The translations under genes were made by a program, and so were the position numbers. The notes under the pieces are model-generated. The model was not told where the DNA came from. It did no database searches and saw nothing but the letters and a program-made list of their open reading frames with translations. From NCBI RefSeq assembly GCF_016841685.1, contig NZ_JAENYR010000017.1:1-59091 (forward strand): a stretch of 59,091 nt of DNA, written 5' to 3'. How positions within the stretch are numbered: the first letter of the stretch is position 1; every line of letters begins with the position of its first letter. The stretch comes from Thiohalomonas denitrificans. Lineage in GTDB: Bacteria > Pseudomonadota > Gammaproteobacteria > Thiohalomonadales > Thiohalomonadaceae. Positions 24,870 through 59,091 of this stretch are shown in pieces.

Positions 24870-25105
24870 CGCGGATTCTGTTGGGTCCACAAAATCGTCG
24901 AGGCCAGGGGGCGCTGCGCAGGCCGCGGCTTCGGGCGTCCTGCCCTTTCACCGCATACCGGCCATCCTGGCCATCAGGGTGGCTCCCTTTCAAGCGGCGC
25001 ACAAATCTGCCGGGAGCGGATTTGGACGGCCGCAGGCCGGCCCGAAGGGCGGGCTCCAGGGATGGAGTCCGCAACGCCGGGATCGGCGATTCAGGACCCA
25101 ACCCT
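24870..25105. repeat. GC-rich intergenic element with inverted ends
   Basis: TTGGGTCCACAAAATCG on the left and CGATTCAGGACCCAACC on the right are partly inverted. The interior contains repeated palindromes of the GGCCGCAGGCCGGCC kind and CAGGGATGGAGT. Together with 25106-25330 it fills the 500-bp gap between bpt and infA. No credible gene; no tRNA seen. Confidence 0.5.
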
Positions 25106-25337
25106 TCGGGCTCGGGACCGTTTTGCCCGCCTGGACTGCGTTACAGCTCGCTCATGTGAGGCAACCACATCACTCGCTGTGCCTTGCCAGCGAACAAAAC
25201 GGCCGCGAGCAGCGTTGGATGATTAGAAGTGCCCTATACTTGCTCTTTGATTCCTGCGGCGAGATCGGGCACTATAAGCCGCCTTTGAAACGTAGGTGTA
25301 AACGCCTACCTCATTTCCAACTAAAAACGAAGACTGC

Positions 25338-48654: not shown

Positions 48655-48750
48655 GATAGAAGTTCCGAAATGGTATCCCTTTACTCCCTTCTCCCTCAGC
48701 GCGAAGGTTAGGATGAGGGGGAGTGATGGACACCATTTCTGAACACGTAT
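48655..48750. repeat. Dispersed composite repeat, copy 2
   Basis: Shares the outer ends GATAGAAGTTCCGAAATGGT and ACCATTTCTGAACACGTAT with the copy at 7017-7113. The internal core AGGTTAGGATGAGGGG is the reverse complement of that copy's CCCTCATCCTAACCT. Confidence 0.8.
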
Positions 48751-48751
48751 T

Positions 48752-49183
48752 TTAGTGCTGCGTCCCCTTCCCGATCTGTTCGGCACGGGCACGCTGCCGC
48801 TCCTCTTGCGCCCGCAACTCGGGCGTGAATTCGGCCCCGAAATCCTCAGCCTCAAACAGCGGGCGCAGTTCAATCTCGGTGTCCTGCATGGGTGAACGCT
48901 TGATCCAGTCGATCGCCTCTTCCAGTGACCCCACCTTCCATAGCCAGAAGCCCGCCATCATATCGTCCGTAAGCCCGAAAGGTCCATTGGTGACGGTGGC
49001 GTCCTTGCCGGAAAAGCGCACACGCACCCCTTTCGAGGTCGGGTGCAGACCCTCCCCCGCGAGGATCACCCCGGCATCAACGAGTTCCTCATTGAATTGC
49101 CCCATTGTCTTGAGCTCTTCTGTGGTTGGCATCAAGCCAGCCTCGGAATCTTTGGATGCTTTGACAATCACCATTACGCGCAT
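48752..49183 (-). CDS. YciI-like (DGPF-domain) protein
   Basis: 143 residues. MRVMVIVKASKDSEAG starts the domain, NGPFGLTDDMMAGFWLWKV is the DGPF-like core, and SLEEAIDWIKRSPM follows. Members are ferredoxin-like dimers of mostly unknown function, sometimes fused to sigma-70 factors. AAGGAG nine bases upstream supports the start at 49183. Confidence 0.85.
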   Translation of the reverse strand: MRVMVIVKASKDSEAGLMPTTEELKTMGQFNEELVDAGVILAGEGLHPTSKGVRVRFSGKDATVTNGPFGLTDDMMAGFWLWKVGSLEEAIDWIKRSPMQDTEIELRPLFEAEDFGAEFTPELRAQEERQRARAEQIGKGTQH

Positions 49184-52294: not shown

Positions 52295-52503
52295 TCACCG
52301 TTTCGGGCTTGTTTACTTGGACACCCACCACAAGCTTGCCGGCAAAACCGCATTCTGCGATGGTGATTTGGACTAACGGAAAAACCCGGGGTAAGGAAAT
52401 GCCCAAGCCAAGTAGAAGCCCCGTGGCGCTCGAAGCGACACCCTACTAATCTCCCGCTGCGTTCGCCGTGCCTTTCTCGGCAATTGCTCCTGCATTGCTC
52501 TAC

Positions 52504-52523
52504 CACCTACATCCATGTAGGTG
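52504..52523. repeat. Perfect 9-bp hairpin CACCTACAT/ATGTAGGTG
   Basis: CACCTACAT and ATGTAGGTG flank a CC loop. It lies within a region of CTCCTGCATTGC and GCGGCGAGGAG flanks that are themselves partly inverted, typical of short dispersed repeats. Confidence 0.6.
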
Positions 52524-52672
52524 TCTGCGGCGAGGAGTTACTTTCTCCGACCTTGCGCGCCAGGCGCAGTATTCGCTGGGTGCGACACCGTACAGCGAAC
52601 ACCATTTTCCAACATTTCTACCGTTACGGTTCTTCTCGATGAGTTTGAAAGGCGAAGCTGTATCGCTGGCAA

Positions 52673-52858: not shown

Positions 52859-53002
52859 GCAATATCTAGCCCTGCCCAATACATACCATGCTGGCTGGAG
52901 GGTATGCACAAATATTGCAAAGTAACTTTTTGATCGCCCTTCGGTGCGCTACCCTATGTGATACTAGGCGCCTCACATATTTCTTCAAGATGGGAAAGCA
53001 CT

Positions 53003-55024
53003 ATGGTCCGCCGCAACGCATCCCGCGTCGATACCTCTCGCCTGAAAACGCACGTCAACGCCATGGCGGAACAGATCGTCGACGTAACCCCGGATGCCTC
53101 ATCCCGGCATTTGCACAATGGCGTAGACACACCACTGCCACCCGCCGACCTGCATGGCAGCTATGTCAATCATCGCCCGCTGCCCACCGAAGGCATCGAG
53201 AATCGCCATGCCTACATTGTTGGCAGCGGAATCGGCGGCCTGTCCGCGGCCTTTTTCCTGATCCGTGACGGCCACATGCCGGCGGAGAATATCACCATTC
53301 TGGAATCCCAAAAGGTCGAGGGAGGCGCACTGGATGGCGCGGGCAATGCCGACGAGGGCTATATCGTTCGAGGTGGCCGCGAAATGGAGATGACCTACCA
53401 GAACTTCTGGGACGTTTTCTCCGAAATACCGGCACTCGAGTTGCCGGAACCCTTCACCGTGCTCGACGAGTACCGGATCGTTAACGATGCGGACAAGAAC
53501 TGGTCAAAAGCCCGGCTGCTGGAAAAACAGGGACAGGTCGGGGATTTCTCAACCATGGGGCTCAGCCGACTGCAGCAGCTCGAGCTGGTCCGGCTTTTCC
53601 TCGCACGCAAGCAAGACCTGGACGACGTCACGGTCGAGGAATGGTTCAGTGAAGGCTTTCTTGGCACCAACTTCTACACTTTCTGGCGCACCATGTTCGC
53701 CTTCCAGAACTGGCATTCCGTGCTCGAAATGAAGCTGTACATGCACCGTTTCCTGCATCTGATGGACGGGCTGAATAATATGACATCGCTCGTCTTTCCC
53801 AAGTACAACCAGTACGACAGCTTTGTGCGCCCGTTGATGAGTTGGCTGAAGGATCAGGGCGTCAACATTCAATACGACACGATTGTGCGTGATTTGGATA
53901 TGGATATCCGCGGCGAGTCCAAAACCACTACCGCGATCCAGTGCCACACCACCGACGGCGAGGAGACCATCAAGGTGGACCCGTGCGATCTGGTGTTCGT
54001 CACCGTCGGCTCGATTGTAGAGGACACCGCTTTCGGGACGGACGACACGGTGCCCGAACTGAGGGTCAACCAGCCAGACCCACAGACTGGCTCAAGCTGG
54101 CAGCTGTGGAAAAAACTCGCCGAGAAATCCCCCGACTTCGGGCGGCCCGAGAAATTCTGTGCCGACGTGCCCAGTTCAACCTGGGAATCTGCAACACTGA
54201 CGTGCAAGCCCTCCGCCCTGACCGAGAAAATCAAGGAACTGGCGGTCAACGATCCCTATTCCGGGAAAACTGTAACCGGCGGCATCGTTACCTTCACAGA
54301 CTCGGCCTGGTTGATGAGCATGACCGTCAACCGCCAGCCACACTTTCCGGACCAGCCCGCCGACGTGATCGTGCCGTGGGTGTATGCCTTGTTCATGGAC
54401 AAGCCCGGCGACTACGTAAAAAAGCCGATGCCGGAATGCACCGGCGAGGAAATCCTGACGGAGCTGTGCTACCACCTCGGCCTTATCGAACAGGTAGACC
54501 ACGTCATTGCGGCCACCAAAGTCCGAACCGCACTGATGCCCTACATCACCGCCCAGTTTATGCCCCGTGCGCAGGGAGACCGCCCCTGGGCCGTGCCGGC
54601 AGGCTCCACCAACCTCGCCTGCCTCGGCCAGTTCGTTGAAACCCATAACGACGTGGTGTTTACCCTGGAAAGCTCGGTTCGCACCGCCCGCACCGGTGTC
54701 TACAGCCTGCTTGACCTCAAAAAGCAGGTGCCCGACATTTACCCCGGCCAATACGACATCCGCAGCCTGCTGCGCGCCACACGCACACTGAACAATGACG
54801 AGGCATTCCTTGGCGAGGGCTTGCTGCGCCGGCTTCTGGCGGGGACCTATCTCGAGAATATCCTGCCCCTTGGCCCCGGTGAAACACCCGATGACCTGAA
54901 AGGCCCCGGCATGTTCGAGCAACAACTGACCAAGTTGCGTGAACTGGTCGAAGACAACCATTCACTGGAGACCGCAAAGGAATGGCTCCAGGAAGTTATA
55001 GACAGCCTCCGCAAACGGCACTGA
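53003..55024 (+). CDS. ohyA: Oleate hydratase (myosin-cross-reactive antigen family)
   Basis: 673 residues. FAD-binding GSGIGGLSAAFFL begins at residue 74, and the catalytic glutamate region is RGGREMEMTYQNFWD (Glu127/Glu129). NNMTSLVFPKYNQYDSFVRP and the conserved C-terminal LESSVRTARTGVYSLLDL also match. The enzyme adds water to the cis double bond of oleic acid to give 10-hydroxystearate. Start at 53003; a leading MILGASHISS extension in the same frame has no better ribosome site. It stands alone beside the cassette array. Confidence 0.93.
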   Translation: MVRRNASRVDTSRLKTHVNAMAEQIVDVTPDASSRHLHNGVDTPLPPADLHGSYVNHRPLPTEGIENRHAYIVGSGIGGLSAAFFLIRDGHMPAENITILESQKVEGGALDGAGNADEGYIVRGGREMEMTYQNFWDVFSEIPALELPEPFTVLDEYRIVNDADKNWSKARLLEKQGQVGDFSTMGLSRLQQLELVRLFLARKQDLDDVTVEEWFSEGFLGTNFYTFWRTMFAFQNWHSVLEMKLYMHRFLHLMDGLNNMTSLVFPKYNQYDSFVRPLMSWLKDQGVNIQYDTIVRDLDMDIRGESKTTTAIQCHTTDGEETIKVDPCDLVFVTVGSIVEDTAFGTDDTVPELRVNQPDPQTGSSWQLWKKLAEKSPDFGRPEKFCADVPSSTWESATLTCKPSALTEKIKELAVNDPYSGKTVTGGIVTFTDSAWLMSMTVNRQPHFPDQPADVIVPWVYALFMDKPGDYVKKPMPECTGEEILTELCYHLGLIEQVDHVIAATKVRTALMPYITAQFMPRAQGDRPWAVPAGSTNLACLGQFVETHNDVVFTLESSVRTARTGVYSLLDLKKQVPDIYPGQYDIRSLLRATRTLNNDEAFLGEGLLRRLLAGTYLENILPLGPGETPDDLKGPGMFEQQLTKLRELVEDNHSLETAKEWLQEVIDSLRKRH

Positions 55025-55605
55025 GGGCGCAGGCATCGATGACCTGGCAGCCTTCCGTTGCCAGGCAAACGGTCCTTCGAGAACCCGTAATATAATTTTG
55101 GGTTCAGGTCCTGTGTTTCGCGCACTTTAAAGACGGAAAAGGGAACGGAGGAATAACGCGCGGTACGGGACCTGCTTCGCCGGCGGCGCTTCCCGTGCGC
55201 CAGCGTTCCCTTCACCATTTAAGCCTTCAAAGCCTCATAGCCCAAGTGACCACACTCGCCCGTTCTTTCCCTGACTTCCCGGCCAGAACAACCCCGGACC
55301 TCACGCAGCCTATCTATGTCAACAGGATTCTTATCCGTGCCGCTTCGGCGCGTGAGGCCCCGAATAGCTGATCCGAGTCCGCCGAAATCAGCTCGCGGAA
55401 ACCGCCTGCCGGCCACCGCTTACGATGGGTGTCTATGTAGTTACTGTTATTCGGTTAATATGCTTGCTGTTCAATTGTTTTCCGGGCTTCGGGATAACAG
55501 ACTTCAACAATGTTCTTGCTCGGCGTGCGAAAGAGGGAAGTTCTTCCGCCTCTTTGCGCCTTGGGGCCTGCCACGACTGGCAAATTGGATTCGTTAATCT
55601 TCCTC
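55025..55605. other. Gap between ohyA and the cassette array
   Basis: About 580 bp. It contains the hairpin at 55139-55213 and no gene with recognisable features. A short plus-strand ORF from 55316 has no ribosome site. It may be the boundary of the array. Confidence 0.4.
55139..55213. repeat. Long inverted repeat (~75 bp)
   Basis: AAGGGAACG ... GCGCGGTACGGGA pairs with TCCCGTGCGCC ... CGTTCCCTT around CCTGCTTCGCCGGCGG. A large stable stem without a U-run, more likely a dispersed repeat than a terminator of ohyA. Confidence 0.6.
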
Positions 55606-55649
55606 ACCCAACCGTCAAACTCCGACTTCGGACACGCTGAGCGCTAGGT
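55606..55649 (-). repeat. attC-like site 6 (short)
   Basis: On the minus strand ACCTAGC ... TCCGA-AG-TCGGA ... GTTGGGT. The outer boxes are RYYYAAC/GTTRRRY-like, with the GTT of the core box intact and an inner 5-bp stem. At 44 bp it is shorter than usual attC sites, so this is the weakest call in the array. Confidence 0.45.
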
Positions 55650-55860
55650 GCGCCATTGTGAATGCTAAACCATCGTAATCAGGATTCTCTATCAGCCCAA
55701 TCACCGGTCCCTCTTTCGATTCTACATACGCCTGCCGGGGAGACTCCCTTTTTTTTGGAAAAAGTCACAACTCAATAAATCCGATGAAAAACTGGATTTC
55801 TCTTTCCAGGGAAACGGCATTAAGCGCTACGTAGTCGATATTCGTGCGAAATACTCTTCT
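55650..55860 (-). pseudogene. Decayed cassette between attC-like sites 6 and 5
   Basis: Minus-strand reading gives two coding-like stretches in one frame, NIDYVALNAVSLEREIQFF and EGPVIGLIENPDYDGLAF, separated by a stop codon. There is no start codon near the core box. It looks like a gene cassette that has lost its function. No family recognised. Confidence 0.4.
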
Positions 55861-55947
55861 GCCGAACGACTGGTTCAGGCGCGCACTAAAGTGGCCTACC
55901 AAAGATTCATCTCAACTGAAGTTCACGCCAGAACTCAATGGTTAGAG
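55861..55947 (-). repeat. attC-like recombination site 5
   Basis: On the minus strand it starts CTCTAACC and ends GTTCGGC, 87 bp. The arms TAACCATTGAGTTCTGGCG and the complement of the right arm AACGACTGGTTCAGGCG match at most positions, with one extra unpaired A, as in integron attC. It follows the 364-residue secreted-protein gene. Confidence 0.7.
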
Positions 55948-56029
55948 GCCTAGCTCCAAAAAGTTCGACATACAGTCTTCGAAAACCTTAAGGTGACTCG
56001 CTCCAGAACTGCCTAATCGCATGATCGGG

Positions 56030-57124
56030 TTAGTTACAGTTACCGCTCAAACCCAGTCCATCACGGTGTGTCGCTGCCTCTATGAAGCTCGGTGACCGGA
56101 ACAGAGACTCGAAGAGGGGTATCGTTCCGGAATTGATGAATTTTAGGTCGCCGTCGATGGACCCCACATAGTAAATAGCGGCATCTTCCCAGCTTTCTGT
56201 CGATGAGACATAAAGTATGCCGTGGTCCCGCCCTCCCAAGTACCCCAATACCTCGCGTCCGACCACGTCACGTATCCAACGCGTCGCATCGACACCTGTC
56301 TTCGGGAGCGACTCTACCCACACTTTGCTTTTCGCTGAATGTAATGCCCGGAAATTTTCAAAATCTCCGGACTTTAAGGCGGAAACGGCACGCTGATACA
56401 GAGCGAAGGCGGGATGACCTCCCAGATCGGCCCCGATGACCACCTCCGGGATGCCAATACAAACACCTTTAGTGTTCTCCTGCCCTACCCGACCACTCAG
56501 CGGAAACTTGACGGCTGCCGGGCCCAGTCCTACTGCTGCAGAAGACCCGTACCGGTGCGGCGACCTCTGATACTGACTCAACCACTTATCGAGCAATTGA
56601 TACTCCGCAGACTCTAGCCCCTTCGGGATGTAGTAGAGTTTTCCGGAAGTCGTCTGCCGAATGTCGAAAACAGGATTTAGCGTCTTCTCCCCAAGCTTCG
56701 CGCTCAATACAAACAGTTCACCATCGGACAGCGCTACCCGTTTTTCAACTTTTTTGTCACCTAGCCGCTGCCACAGGCCGAACCCGCTATCGAGGAAGCC
56801 CTTGGTTTCGGCGGTGTTCAGCTTCTCTGGTACAAGACCTAGCAGTTTCTCGATGTCGGCCGAGCCCAGTGCTTTGAGAATGACGGACAAAAGCCGTTCC
56901 TCAGGTGTTGTTGTTGTTGCGTAAAACGCATCCAGACTCATTCCGTACTCGTACTCCCTTACCAGTAGAGAAAATTCACTTGGCTGAAATCCATTATCGA
57001 CGGGGAACGGTACAGGATAGGCGTGTCGCGACTGTGCGGCTGCGTTCAGGGAGAGGGTCGCTATGGCTACGGTGCATATGGTAACTATCCAGTTCATCGA
57101 TCCCTTGGTTCCGAGGGTCAGCAT
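56030..57124 (-). CDS. Unrecognised secreted protein (integron cassette gene)
   Basis: 364 residues from the ATG at 57124, chosen for GAGG six bases upstream. An N-terminal signal peptide follows (NWIVTICTVAIATLSLNAAA). The mature part begins with HAYPVPFPVDNGFQPSEF and contains segments such as YGMSLDAFYATTTTPEERLL and KLYYIPKGLESAEYQLLDKW. There are no catalytic motifs that I recognise. It sits between attC-like sites 4 and 5 with its start just inside the cassette boundary, so it is a mobile cassette gene. A nearby start at 57097 is an alternative. Confidence 0.75.
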   Translation of the reverse strand: MLTLGTKGSMNWIVTICTVAIATLSLNAAAQSRHAYPVPFPVDNGFQPSEFSLLVREYEYGMSLDAFYATTTTPEERLLSVILKALGSADIEKLLGLVPEKLNTAETKGFLDSGFGLWQRLGDKKVEKRVALSDGELFVLSAKLGEKTLNPVFDIRQTTSGKLYYIPKGLESAEYQLLDKWLSQYQRSPHRYGSSAAVGLGPAAVKFPLSGRVGQENTKGVCIGIPEVVIGADLGGHPAFALYQRAVSALKSGDFENFRALHSAKSKVWVESLPKTGVDATRWIRDVVGREVLGYLGGRDHGILYVSSTESWEDAAIYYVGSIDGDLKFINSGTIPLFESLFRSPSFIEAATHRDGLGLSGNCN

Positions 57125-57130
57125 GTTTAC

Positions 57131-57217
57131 CTCTAACGCCACGCATCACCGGCAGCGAAAAGCAGAGCGAGGAAAGAGCGGCGCTTTTTGCTGTCCGAGT
57201 GCATGTGATTGTTAGCT
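57131..57217 (-). repeat. attC recombination site 4
   Basis: On the minus strand it runs from GCTAACAATCACATGC to GATGCGTGGCGTTAGAG, 87 bp. The two arms pair along CAC-GCA-C-CGG-CAGC-AAAAGC with small unpaired bases, the signature of attC. The TAA stop of the amidohydrolase lies within its first box, and the next gene starts seven bases after its core box. Confidence 0.88.
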
Positions 57218-58017
57218 GATTGCGGGTTTATAAAGTTTGATAGCATTTTTGCTAAATACCTTTTTTGCAGCCTCAACCCCGATAACATCCGCTACCTTAG
57301 CTATATCACTATCCTGAAATGGGGTTGGCGCTCTTATTGATGGTAAATCCGTTCCGAACATCAATGAATCGGGGTTTGTGTTATAGAGCTCAGCTATGGC
57401 ATGCAGGGCATCAAAGTCAATACGACCGAAACGGTAGCTTTTATTTTCACACCGTTACCCGCAAGCTTGAGCAAATGAGCAAACCCAGACTTGCTCATAC
57501 CAAGATGATCAATGCTCACGGATGGCAGTTGTATCAATGTGGTAGACAAGTATTCAAGTGCAGCTGAATCAACGTACAATTCGATATGCCAGCCAACCAA
57601 GTCATGAACTCGTTTTGCCATTGACACCATGTGTTCAAGCGTTTCAGAGCCACCGCGATACAGATTAAATCTCAACGCCCTCACCCCAGTTTCATGAAGT
57701 TCAATTATACATTCATCGGTAGTTGTATATGGCAGTTGCGTAACACCTACAAATGTAGGCCCCAAAGCATTTAATGCGGATACCAGATACCCTTGGTCGA
57801 ACGCTTGAAAGGAACCAGAAACGATTGCACCACCTACAAGGTTATACTTTGACAACCTCGCTAAATAATCTTCGTGCGTAAATGCCTCAGGTAGATAGCC
57901 ATTATTCGGCACCAACGGATAACGTGGATCGATAATATGGAAGTGGCTATCGAATAATTCAAATTCGTCTAACAAATATATGCTCCTCTCCGTATACCAA
58001 TGCCCAGCTTTCTTCAT
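57212..58017 (-). pseudogene. Frameshifted amidohydrolase (cassette gene)
   Basis: The first ~190 codons encode an amidohydrolase-2-type barrel (ELFDSHFHIIDPRYPLV, VRALRFNLYRGG, SIDHLGMSKSG). Near 57430 one G appears lost (ACCGTTTCGG where ACCGGTTTCGG would be expected). Reading on in the next frame gives GRIDFDALHAIAELYN and MFGTDLPSIRAPTPF, the expected C-terminal part, ending at TAA 57212. So the gene is complete except for a 1-nt deletion, or the deletion is a sequencing error. A TTG at 57975 with AGGAG seven bases upstream is a likely alternative start. Relatives hydrolyse lactones and similar carboxylates. Confidence 0.85.
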
Positions 58018-58019
58018 AC

Positions 58020-58047
58020 AGCTAACGCTAAAACTCAGCAGCGCCGC
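58020..58047 (-). repeat. Right half of attC site 3
   Basis: On the minus strand GCGGCGCTGCTGAGTTTTAG CGTTAGCT is the L'-R' half of an attC, ending in the GTTAGCT core box three bases before the amidohydrolase ATG. The other half is missing; IS-related sequence takes its place. Confidence 0.75.
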
Positions 58048-58200
58048 TTTTTCGGGTCGACTGGAGTGATGGAATGGACTCCTCCCGCCCTTTTTTCGGC
58101 ATCATAGTGCCACACGAGTGAACGAAGACAGGGAGGAATCCACTATGGAGCATTAAGTGATCGCCATCGACCTGGCAAAAGACGTGTTTGAGCTGCAGAC
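58048..58200 (+). mobile_element. Remnant of an IS110/IS1111-family insertion sequence
   Basis: The start of the transposase is recognisable at 58144: VIAIDLAKDVFELQ, the N-terminal catalytic-aspartate segment of IS110-family DEDD transposases, with stop codons before and after it. About 100 bp of typical leader (CGAAGACAGGGAGGAATC before the ATG) precede it. The rest of the element is gone. IS1111-attC elements are known to target attC sites, which fits the position next to half an attC. Confidence 0.75.
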
Positions 58201-58325
58201 TTAAAGAAGGCACCCCGATCGGCTCGGAGGTCAGTCACTGGCAGCGCACATGCTGCATCGTATATTCGACTATTCATCAGCCGGTTGTATTCCGCAAACA
58301 ACCGAAAGTGATCTGTCATGCTCAT
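58201..58325 (-). pseudogene. Truncated DinB-family gene (cassette gene)
   Basis: About 42 residues remain: TDHFRLFAEYNRLMNSRIYD followed by AACALPVTDLRADRGAFFK, which is the usual N-terminus of DinB-family proteins (metal-binding four-helix bundle). The reading frame then runs into IS sequence. The metal-binding histidine of the first helix-helix segment and all later parts are lost. It begins about 20 bp after attC site 2. Confidence 0.8.
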
Positions 58326-58347
58326 AGTGCGTCCATTTCAACATAAA

Positions 58348-58400
58348 GCCCAGCTGCACCCGCGGCCCACGAGCGCGTCGGGTGGAAGCGATGGTTGGGC
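58348..58400 (-). repeat. attC-like recombination site 2
   Basis: On the minus strand GCCCAACCATCGCTTCCACC CGACGCG ... CGCGGGTGCAGCTGGGC. The first box is GCCCAAC, the inner arms CACCCG/CGGGTG pair, and the core box reads GCTGGGC, one change from GTTGGGC. The stop codon of the P-loop gene is seven bases before it. Confidence 0.8.
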
Positions 58401-58406
58401 GTCGCC

Positions 58407-58940
58407 TCAGCGGATACCGGAATGCTCATTAGTAACAGCTCCGACAAAAGCCTTTATAGCGCTGGCCGATTTCAAGTGATGCACTCGCTTGTGAGTGGCC
58501 TGCTCTGCAACCAACTGCCGGTATTTGGGTGTCAGTTTTTCATGACAGAGCCGAAGTACTCGATAGCTGTTCAATGTGCTGCTCCATATTGGACTGTTCT
58601 CGGGCCACCCCTCGGGCGTGACGATTAAGCCCTTTACGAGACGCTTTGTCACCCAGACGTAATGCGTGAATAGCGATAGATCGACGTAGATCAGCGTGTC
58701 AGCAGCCGAAAAACGTTCCCAGGCTGATGGCACGCAGCCGAACCCGTCAATGATCCACTCGTCTCCGCGTAGCAGTTCGGAATGAATCTGAAGGTACTCG
58801 TTGTGAGGCACCTCACCGCCACCAGGCCTGTATTTAATGGTGTCGAGTGAGTGCAGCGGCAAACGGGTAATGCCGGCCAGTTGCCGAGCGAGCGTTGATT
58901 TACCGCCGCCAGCGTTGCCAAAAACTGCAACTCGCCTCAT
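58407..58940 (-). CDS. P-loop kinase-like protein (integron cassette gene)
   Basis: 177 residues. Walker A lies in FGNAGGGKSTLARQLAG near the N-terminus, followed by LDTIKYRPGG and DEWIIDGFG, then WERFSAADTLIYVDLS. This is the adenylate-kinase-like / topology-modulation (FlaR-type) P-loop family. The substrate is unknown. The ATG at 58940 gives the family start; ATG 58973, four bases after the attC core box, is an alternative. Flanked by attC-like sites 1 and 2. Confidence 0.8.
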   Translation of the reverse strand: MRRVAVFGNAGGGKSTLARQLAGITRLPLHSLDTIKYRPGGGEVPHNEYLQIHSELLRGDEWIIDGFGCVPSAWERFSAADTLIYVDLSLFTHYVWVTKRLVKGLIVTPEGWPENSPIWSSTLNSYRVLRLCHEKLTPKYRQLVAEQATHKRVHHLKSASAIKAFVGAVTNEHSGIR

Positions 58941-58976
58941 CTCAGACACTCTACTCACTGAGCTGTTCTCCATGAC

Positions 58977-59046
58977 GCCCAACGACTAAGCTCAGCCGCG
59001 GAAGGCCGCGTAGCGGCCTGACGTCGGATGGAGCGCATAGTTGGAC
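58977..59046 (-). repeat. attC recombination site 1
   Basis: On the minus strand GTCCAACTATGCGCTCCATC CGACGTC, a GGCCGCTACGCGGCC central hairpin, then GCGGCTGAGCTTAGTCGTTG GGC. Boxes GTCCAAC and GTTGGGC are both intact and about 70 bp apart. This is the most canonical attC in the window. Confidence 0.9.
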
Positions 59047-59091
59047 GAAGCCGCTACGCGGCAGAAAAGATAAGCGCGGGGACGTAAGCTC

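Follow-up and report, generated by a model that had tools for sequence, protein, structure and literature searches.

An eroding stretch of chromosomal integron cassette array in a Thiohalomonas denitrificans genome whose integrases look inactive

Short minus-strand genes and imperfect palindromes alternate at the right edge of a 59,091-bp contig of Thiohalomonas denitrificans, which raises the question of whether they form a chromosomal integron cassette array and whether such an array could still exchange cassettes. The window analysed here is this whole contig (C49, 59091 bp), hence there is no sequence to the right of its last position. It belongs to a host genome (G000) that is a 3.79 Mb draft in 160 contigs, and G001 below is a congener. 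GC content is 50.9% in the array versus 59.6% in the rest of the window. We are confident that positions 55448-59091 are a stretch of an eroding chromosomal integron cassette array, that the integrases of this genome look inactive, and that the array is probably frozen. The features of this stretch are collected in Table 1.

Table 1. Features of the cassette array at the right edge of the window, listed from its distal end
Feature	Position	Strand	Remarks
Cassette 5: VOC-like (glyoxalase-fold) gene relic	55448..55866	-	several frameshifts, own attC lost
attC site 5, degenerate	55861..55947	-	cassette boundary
Cassette 4: function-unassigned protein with signal-peptide-like start	56030..57124	-	open ORF, 355 to 365 residues
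attC site 4	57131..57217	-	R1 and identity to C12 attC
Cassette 3: amidohydrolase-like gene	57212..58017	-	Pfam Amidohydro_2 E 1.7e-12
attC site 3, 3' half only	58020..58060	-	R' GTTAGCT 58026-58020; just before ATG 58017; abuts IS left end
IS1111-type remnant, left end and transposase start, with stop codons	58061..58204	+	ISPa25 likeness
Cassette 2: DinB-like gene, 5' part, 3' part lost	58205..58325	-	Pfam DinB E 0.006, below curated cut-off
attC site 2, damaged	58341..58400	-	R1 and alignment with C140:1169-1240
Cassette 1: P-loop protein	58407..58973	-	ORF, open
attC site 1, intact	58977..59046	-	R1 and DNA hairpin
Cassette 3' end, rest cut off by contig end	59047..59091	-	upstream of first attC in array orientation

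A crude box-plus-palindrome score rated one place outside the array, 25096-25220, as highly as the array sites (47.5 versus 47.1) and was too unspecific, so a covariance model was used instead. This model, R1, is our own and is not the attC model of IntegronFinder. It was trained on 19 attC sites that lie in integrons of Pseudoxanthomonas, Lysobacter and further relatives, none of them from the host genome; the sites were aligned, the R-box and L-box pairing and the unpaired base in L'' were set, and the covariance model was then built. Since a stricter box-plus-palindrome scan gave no clear enrichment on the side upstream of intI when taken over all foreign loci (0.17 versus 0.13 per kb), the training sites were drawn only from loci with evident arrays. 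In a control run with filters off, R1 reached a maximum of 12.9 bits over window positions 1-55000. The attC covariance scan of the array, which the earlier note had proposed as its check, gave 47.3 bits for site 1 (E 6e-9), 26.8 bits for site 4 (match at 57131-57216) and 14.7 bits for site 2, the last just above the noise ceiling. Set against the control, two sites are thus certain, one is marginal, and the remaining sites need other evidence. All three matches lie on the minus strand; sites 3 and 5 are recognised by position only. An Rfam search of the window returned no match.

The predicted folds agree with the two clear scores. Site 1 is a full attC and has a predicted single-strand DNA fold with a z of -3.3 that no shuffle equalled in stability, and its attC family also occurs on C47, on C57 and in G001. 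Likewise, the attC at site 4 has a predicted single-strand DNA hairpin (z -2.2), and it shares 84% identity with the attC that opens the array beside intI on contig C12. Site 2 is a real attC as well, but its bounds of 58348-58400 had to be redrawn on the basis of an alignment with its counterpart at C140:1169-1240, which scores 44.2 bits with R1. Relative to this counterpart, site 2 has a 12-nt internal deletion, and its R' reads TTTATGT versus GTTATGC on C140. Start codons had been said to fall a few bases after the core boxes and stop codons at the first boxes, and this spacing was found: ATG 58973 is 4 nt past its R' (58983-58977), and the ATG of cassette 3 is 3 nt past the R' of site 3.

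Site 3 gave a weak partial R1 match at 58027-58069, likewise on the minus strand, whose 10.6 bits are within noise by score alone. The half site noticed at 58020-58047 is what is left of an attC interrupted by an IS1111-type fragment, and it is only half a site because this element begins at about 58061. Specifically, the fragment opens with 25 nt identical to the left end of ISPa25, followed by a transposase start (VIAIDLAKDVFEL versus VAVDLAKDVFEL), and window positions 58061-58088 match sequence that immediately precedes the transposase of ISPa25 in an integron carried by a plasmid. The fragment was recognised through this ISPa25 plasmid; translated with X at its stops, it had no Pfam match. 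ISPa25 and its relatives use attC sites as targets (PMC11187229). Among IS1111-attC elements such as ISPa25 and ISKpn4 (PMC11187229), the remnant agrees with ISPa25 at its left end and at the beginning of its transposase, and it directly adjoins half of an attC, but it differs from them in being reduced to about 140 bp and in containing stop codons. An IS1111-type element probably entered site 3, and a later deletion would have taken most of the element and, with it, the DinB-like gene's 3' part.

For site 5, neither the R1 score (4.6 bits) nor the fold (z -1.1) can be told from noise. The VOC-like cassette begins with the R' of this site, GTTCGGC, as do both homologues of the cassette in G001, which indicates that the site sits at a true cassette start. 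The earlier reading of this palindrome therefore stands as regards the cassette boundary, but finds no backing in score or fold. The VOC-like relic is 79-85% identical to the copies on G001:C15 and G001:C4, both of which are flanked by attC matches on each side, and the VOC cassette is thus seen in three contexts. The same homologues place 55606-55649, which had been put forward with a "perhaps" as one more attC, inside the broken VOC-like gene; this candidate was rejected, as it has no R1 match and a fold z of 0. Overall, the array does run leftward from 59046 at the right edge as described, but it extends beyond the left limit of 55606 given for it to about 55448.

Two observations concern the sequence past the distal array end. 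A gene of the MCRA family (oleate hydratase-like) lies just past it at window 52958-55024 and had no match among the 19 relatives searched. Short intergenic repeats at window 52477-52526 and 48657-48753 have at least 20 matches across the host genome and G001; the repeat at 52477-52526 comes after a fragment reading MPKPSRSPVALEATPY, which resembles the beginning of an ORF on C20 for a REP-associated transposase.

Additional analysis of the cassette genes showed that gene and attC recur together as one R'-bounded unit. The P-loop cassette of the window has a copy on C140 from which it differs at 7 of 576 nt (98.8% identity), and the identity ends at the attC boundaries, with unrelated flanks on either side; the VOC cassette in its contexts is the second case. 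The P-loop protein itself has a weak likeness to DNA topology modulation proteins, its NCBIfam score of 72.7 bits falling short of the cut-off. Its relatives include one of 86% identity that lies between two attC matches in G190, which belongs to another family, and one of 42% in G150 with attC matches on both sides. For seven further P-loop matches, partial or of 41-44% identity, the stretch examined contained no attC match, which indicates that the protein family is not confined to arrays. The second P-loop copy (L103 = G000:C140, 240-4470) has a HigB-like toxin gene upstream, and is followed by further cassettes (methyltransferase-like, GNAT-like and GFA-like by ORF reading), with three attC matches in this stretch. 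In regards to the other cargo, the amidohydrolase-like gene has a one-base frameshift near 57430-57440, after which another frame continues to the attC. Neither Pfam nor NCBIfam matched the cassette 4 protein, and a search at E 1e-8 across 369 genomes of this class turned up no relative.

The sites and the recurring units are evidence of past cassette recombination, which we infer to have been the work of IntI. Each gene with its attC would have been taken up as a circle by this tyrosine recombinase and joined in G|TT to G|TT in a single orientation, with the integrase end toward the right edge of the contig. Erosion has since cost site 2 its crossover base, rendered site 5 nearly unrecognisable, removed the last attC, and broken the DinB-like, amidohydrolase and VOC-like genes.

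No intI lies on C49, which ends at 59091, and the intI and attI that the earlier note placed to the right of this position would fall beyond the contig. A search of the host genome with TIGR02249 gave one match above cut-off, on C12 (371.8 bits), to which a second frame adds 81.1 bits. This C12 intI (L010 3692-4740) is split over two frames near L010:4444-4456, beside the palindrome CAGGCGCTTAGCGCCTG, a frameshift that is read from a draft assembly. The only other intI, on C20 (L205 2377-2540), is a remnant of about 47 codons; this contig has kept a stretch that is 81% like the region upstream of the C12 intI, along with two attC matches. A functional IntI reading frame was thus found at neither locus. 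Both genes appear inactive, and the array is therefore probably frozen; as far as the draft sequence of the two broken integrases can tell, present cassette activity looks unlikely. The array is notable mainly because the sole integrase genes found in the genome look broken.

The integron on C12 comprises an SDR cassette, a second cassette, two attC matches (45.0 and 29.3 bits) and a third small ORF; the second attC is separated from the cassette that comes after it by a group II intron and its reverse transcriptase. This intron (L010 6735-8669) has an 83% identical 5' part at L175 (C101) 1810-2506, adjoining the C101 attC. Group II introns beside attC are known (PMC7923331), and C12 is alike in having an intron and reverse transcriptase near attC, but its intron stands outside the window and its insertion point relative to attC is only approximate. 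Moreover, a stretch of about 260 bp adjoining the C12 intI (L010 3484-3746) recurs at 72-80% identity at L175 (C101) 346-604, L205 2219-2376, G001:C1:1898-2152, G001:C2:387933-388193 and C73:9432-9686, and some of these copies stand close to attC matches.

It is possible that the C49 array is joined to the C12 integron, since both arrays run toward contig ends. However, in view of the broken C12 intI, the short C20 remnant and interior attC clusters that have no intI, the C49 piece may equally be a CALIN. It would then be free-standing and unconnected to C12, being either an old array that has lost its own platform or a set of cassettes inserted in trans, and this reading has nearly as much for it as against it. 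R1 matches to attC occur on 10 contigs (C12, C20, C47, C49, C57, C84, C87, C101, C140 and C157), and those on C47, C57 and C87 lie at least 11 kb from either contig end without an intI, which indicates that not all attC are pieces of one broken array. G001 also has attC clusters, one of them at the locus matching C87, and no integron integrase match at E 1e-60; the G001 stretch after the syntenic region has no attC. In addition, CALINs located elsewhere than at the main locus are present in about 50% of Xanthomonas genomes (PMC12444791). On the other hand, the array meets the contig end on the side where the platform is expected, and the C12 array likewise runs toward the end of its contig, which makes a break in the assembly just as simple an account, and draft genomes overestimate CALINs according to the IntegronFinder 2.0 paper (PMC9024848). 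Measured against the CALIN as defined with IntegronFinder (PMC9024848), C49 is alike in having at least two attC in one orientation and no intI on the contig, but its array is cut by the contig end and may be part of a larger integron.

A less probable alternative to a frozen array, and one to which we give little credence, is that cassettes still move in the genus without an intact intI. The two P-loop copies of near identity in separate arrays suggest that the split C12 intI, for example by frameshifting, or another recombinase acting in trans may be at work, whereas the broken state of both integrases points the other way. Finally, that these are chance palindromes beside unrelated small minus-strand genes is scarcely credible: the crude score does give the site at 25096-25220 an equal rank, but R1 does not report it, site 4 closely matches the attC beside intI, and entire cassettes turn up again with attC at their edges and, in other genomes, next to attC. 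The one-orientation cassette array that the earlier note described is thus upheld by an independent covariance model, by the shared orientation, by recurring units that break at attC boundaries, and by an intI next to a homologous attC on C12.

The array at the right edge of C49 is ordinary in kind, a real chromosomal integron or CALIN in decay. Xanthomonas offers a described case of comparable decay (PMC12444791): it has CALINs and inactivated intI, and there are likewise chromosomal arrays, intI genes broken by frameshifts or deletions, and attC clusters at several loci away from intI. The present case differs in lineage and cassettes, and its C12 intI platform adjoins a dnaE2-like gene (error-prone DNA polymerase, by ORF reading) and not ilvD. 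Since pseudogenes make up almost a third of the intI genes surveyed (PMC2426708), no general idea is changed by this array. What it adds is a lineage with an apparently decayed chromosomal integron system whose arrays persist at several loci, the signs of decay being broken integrases, the relic of an attC-targeting IS and a group II intron beside attC. A comparison of the host genome with G001 would let the loss of the integrase be dated against cassette turnover.
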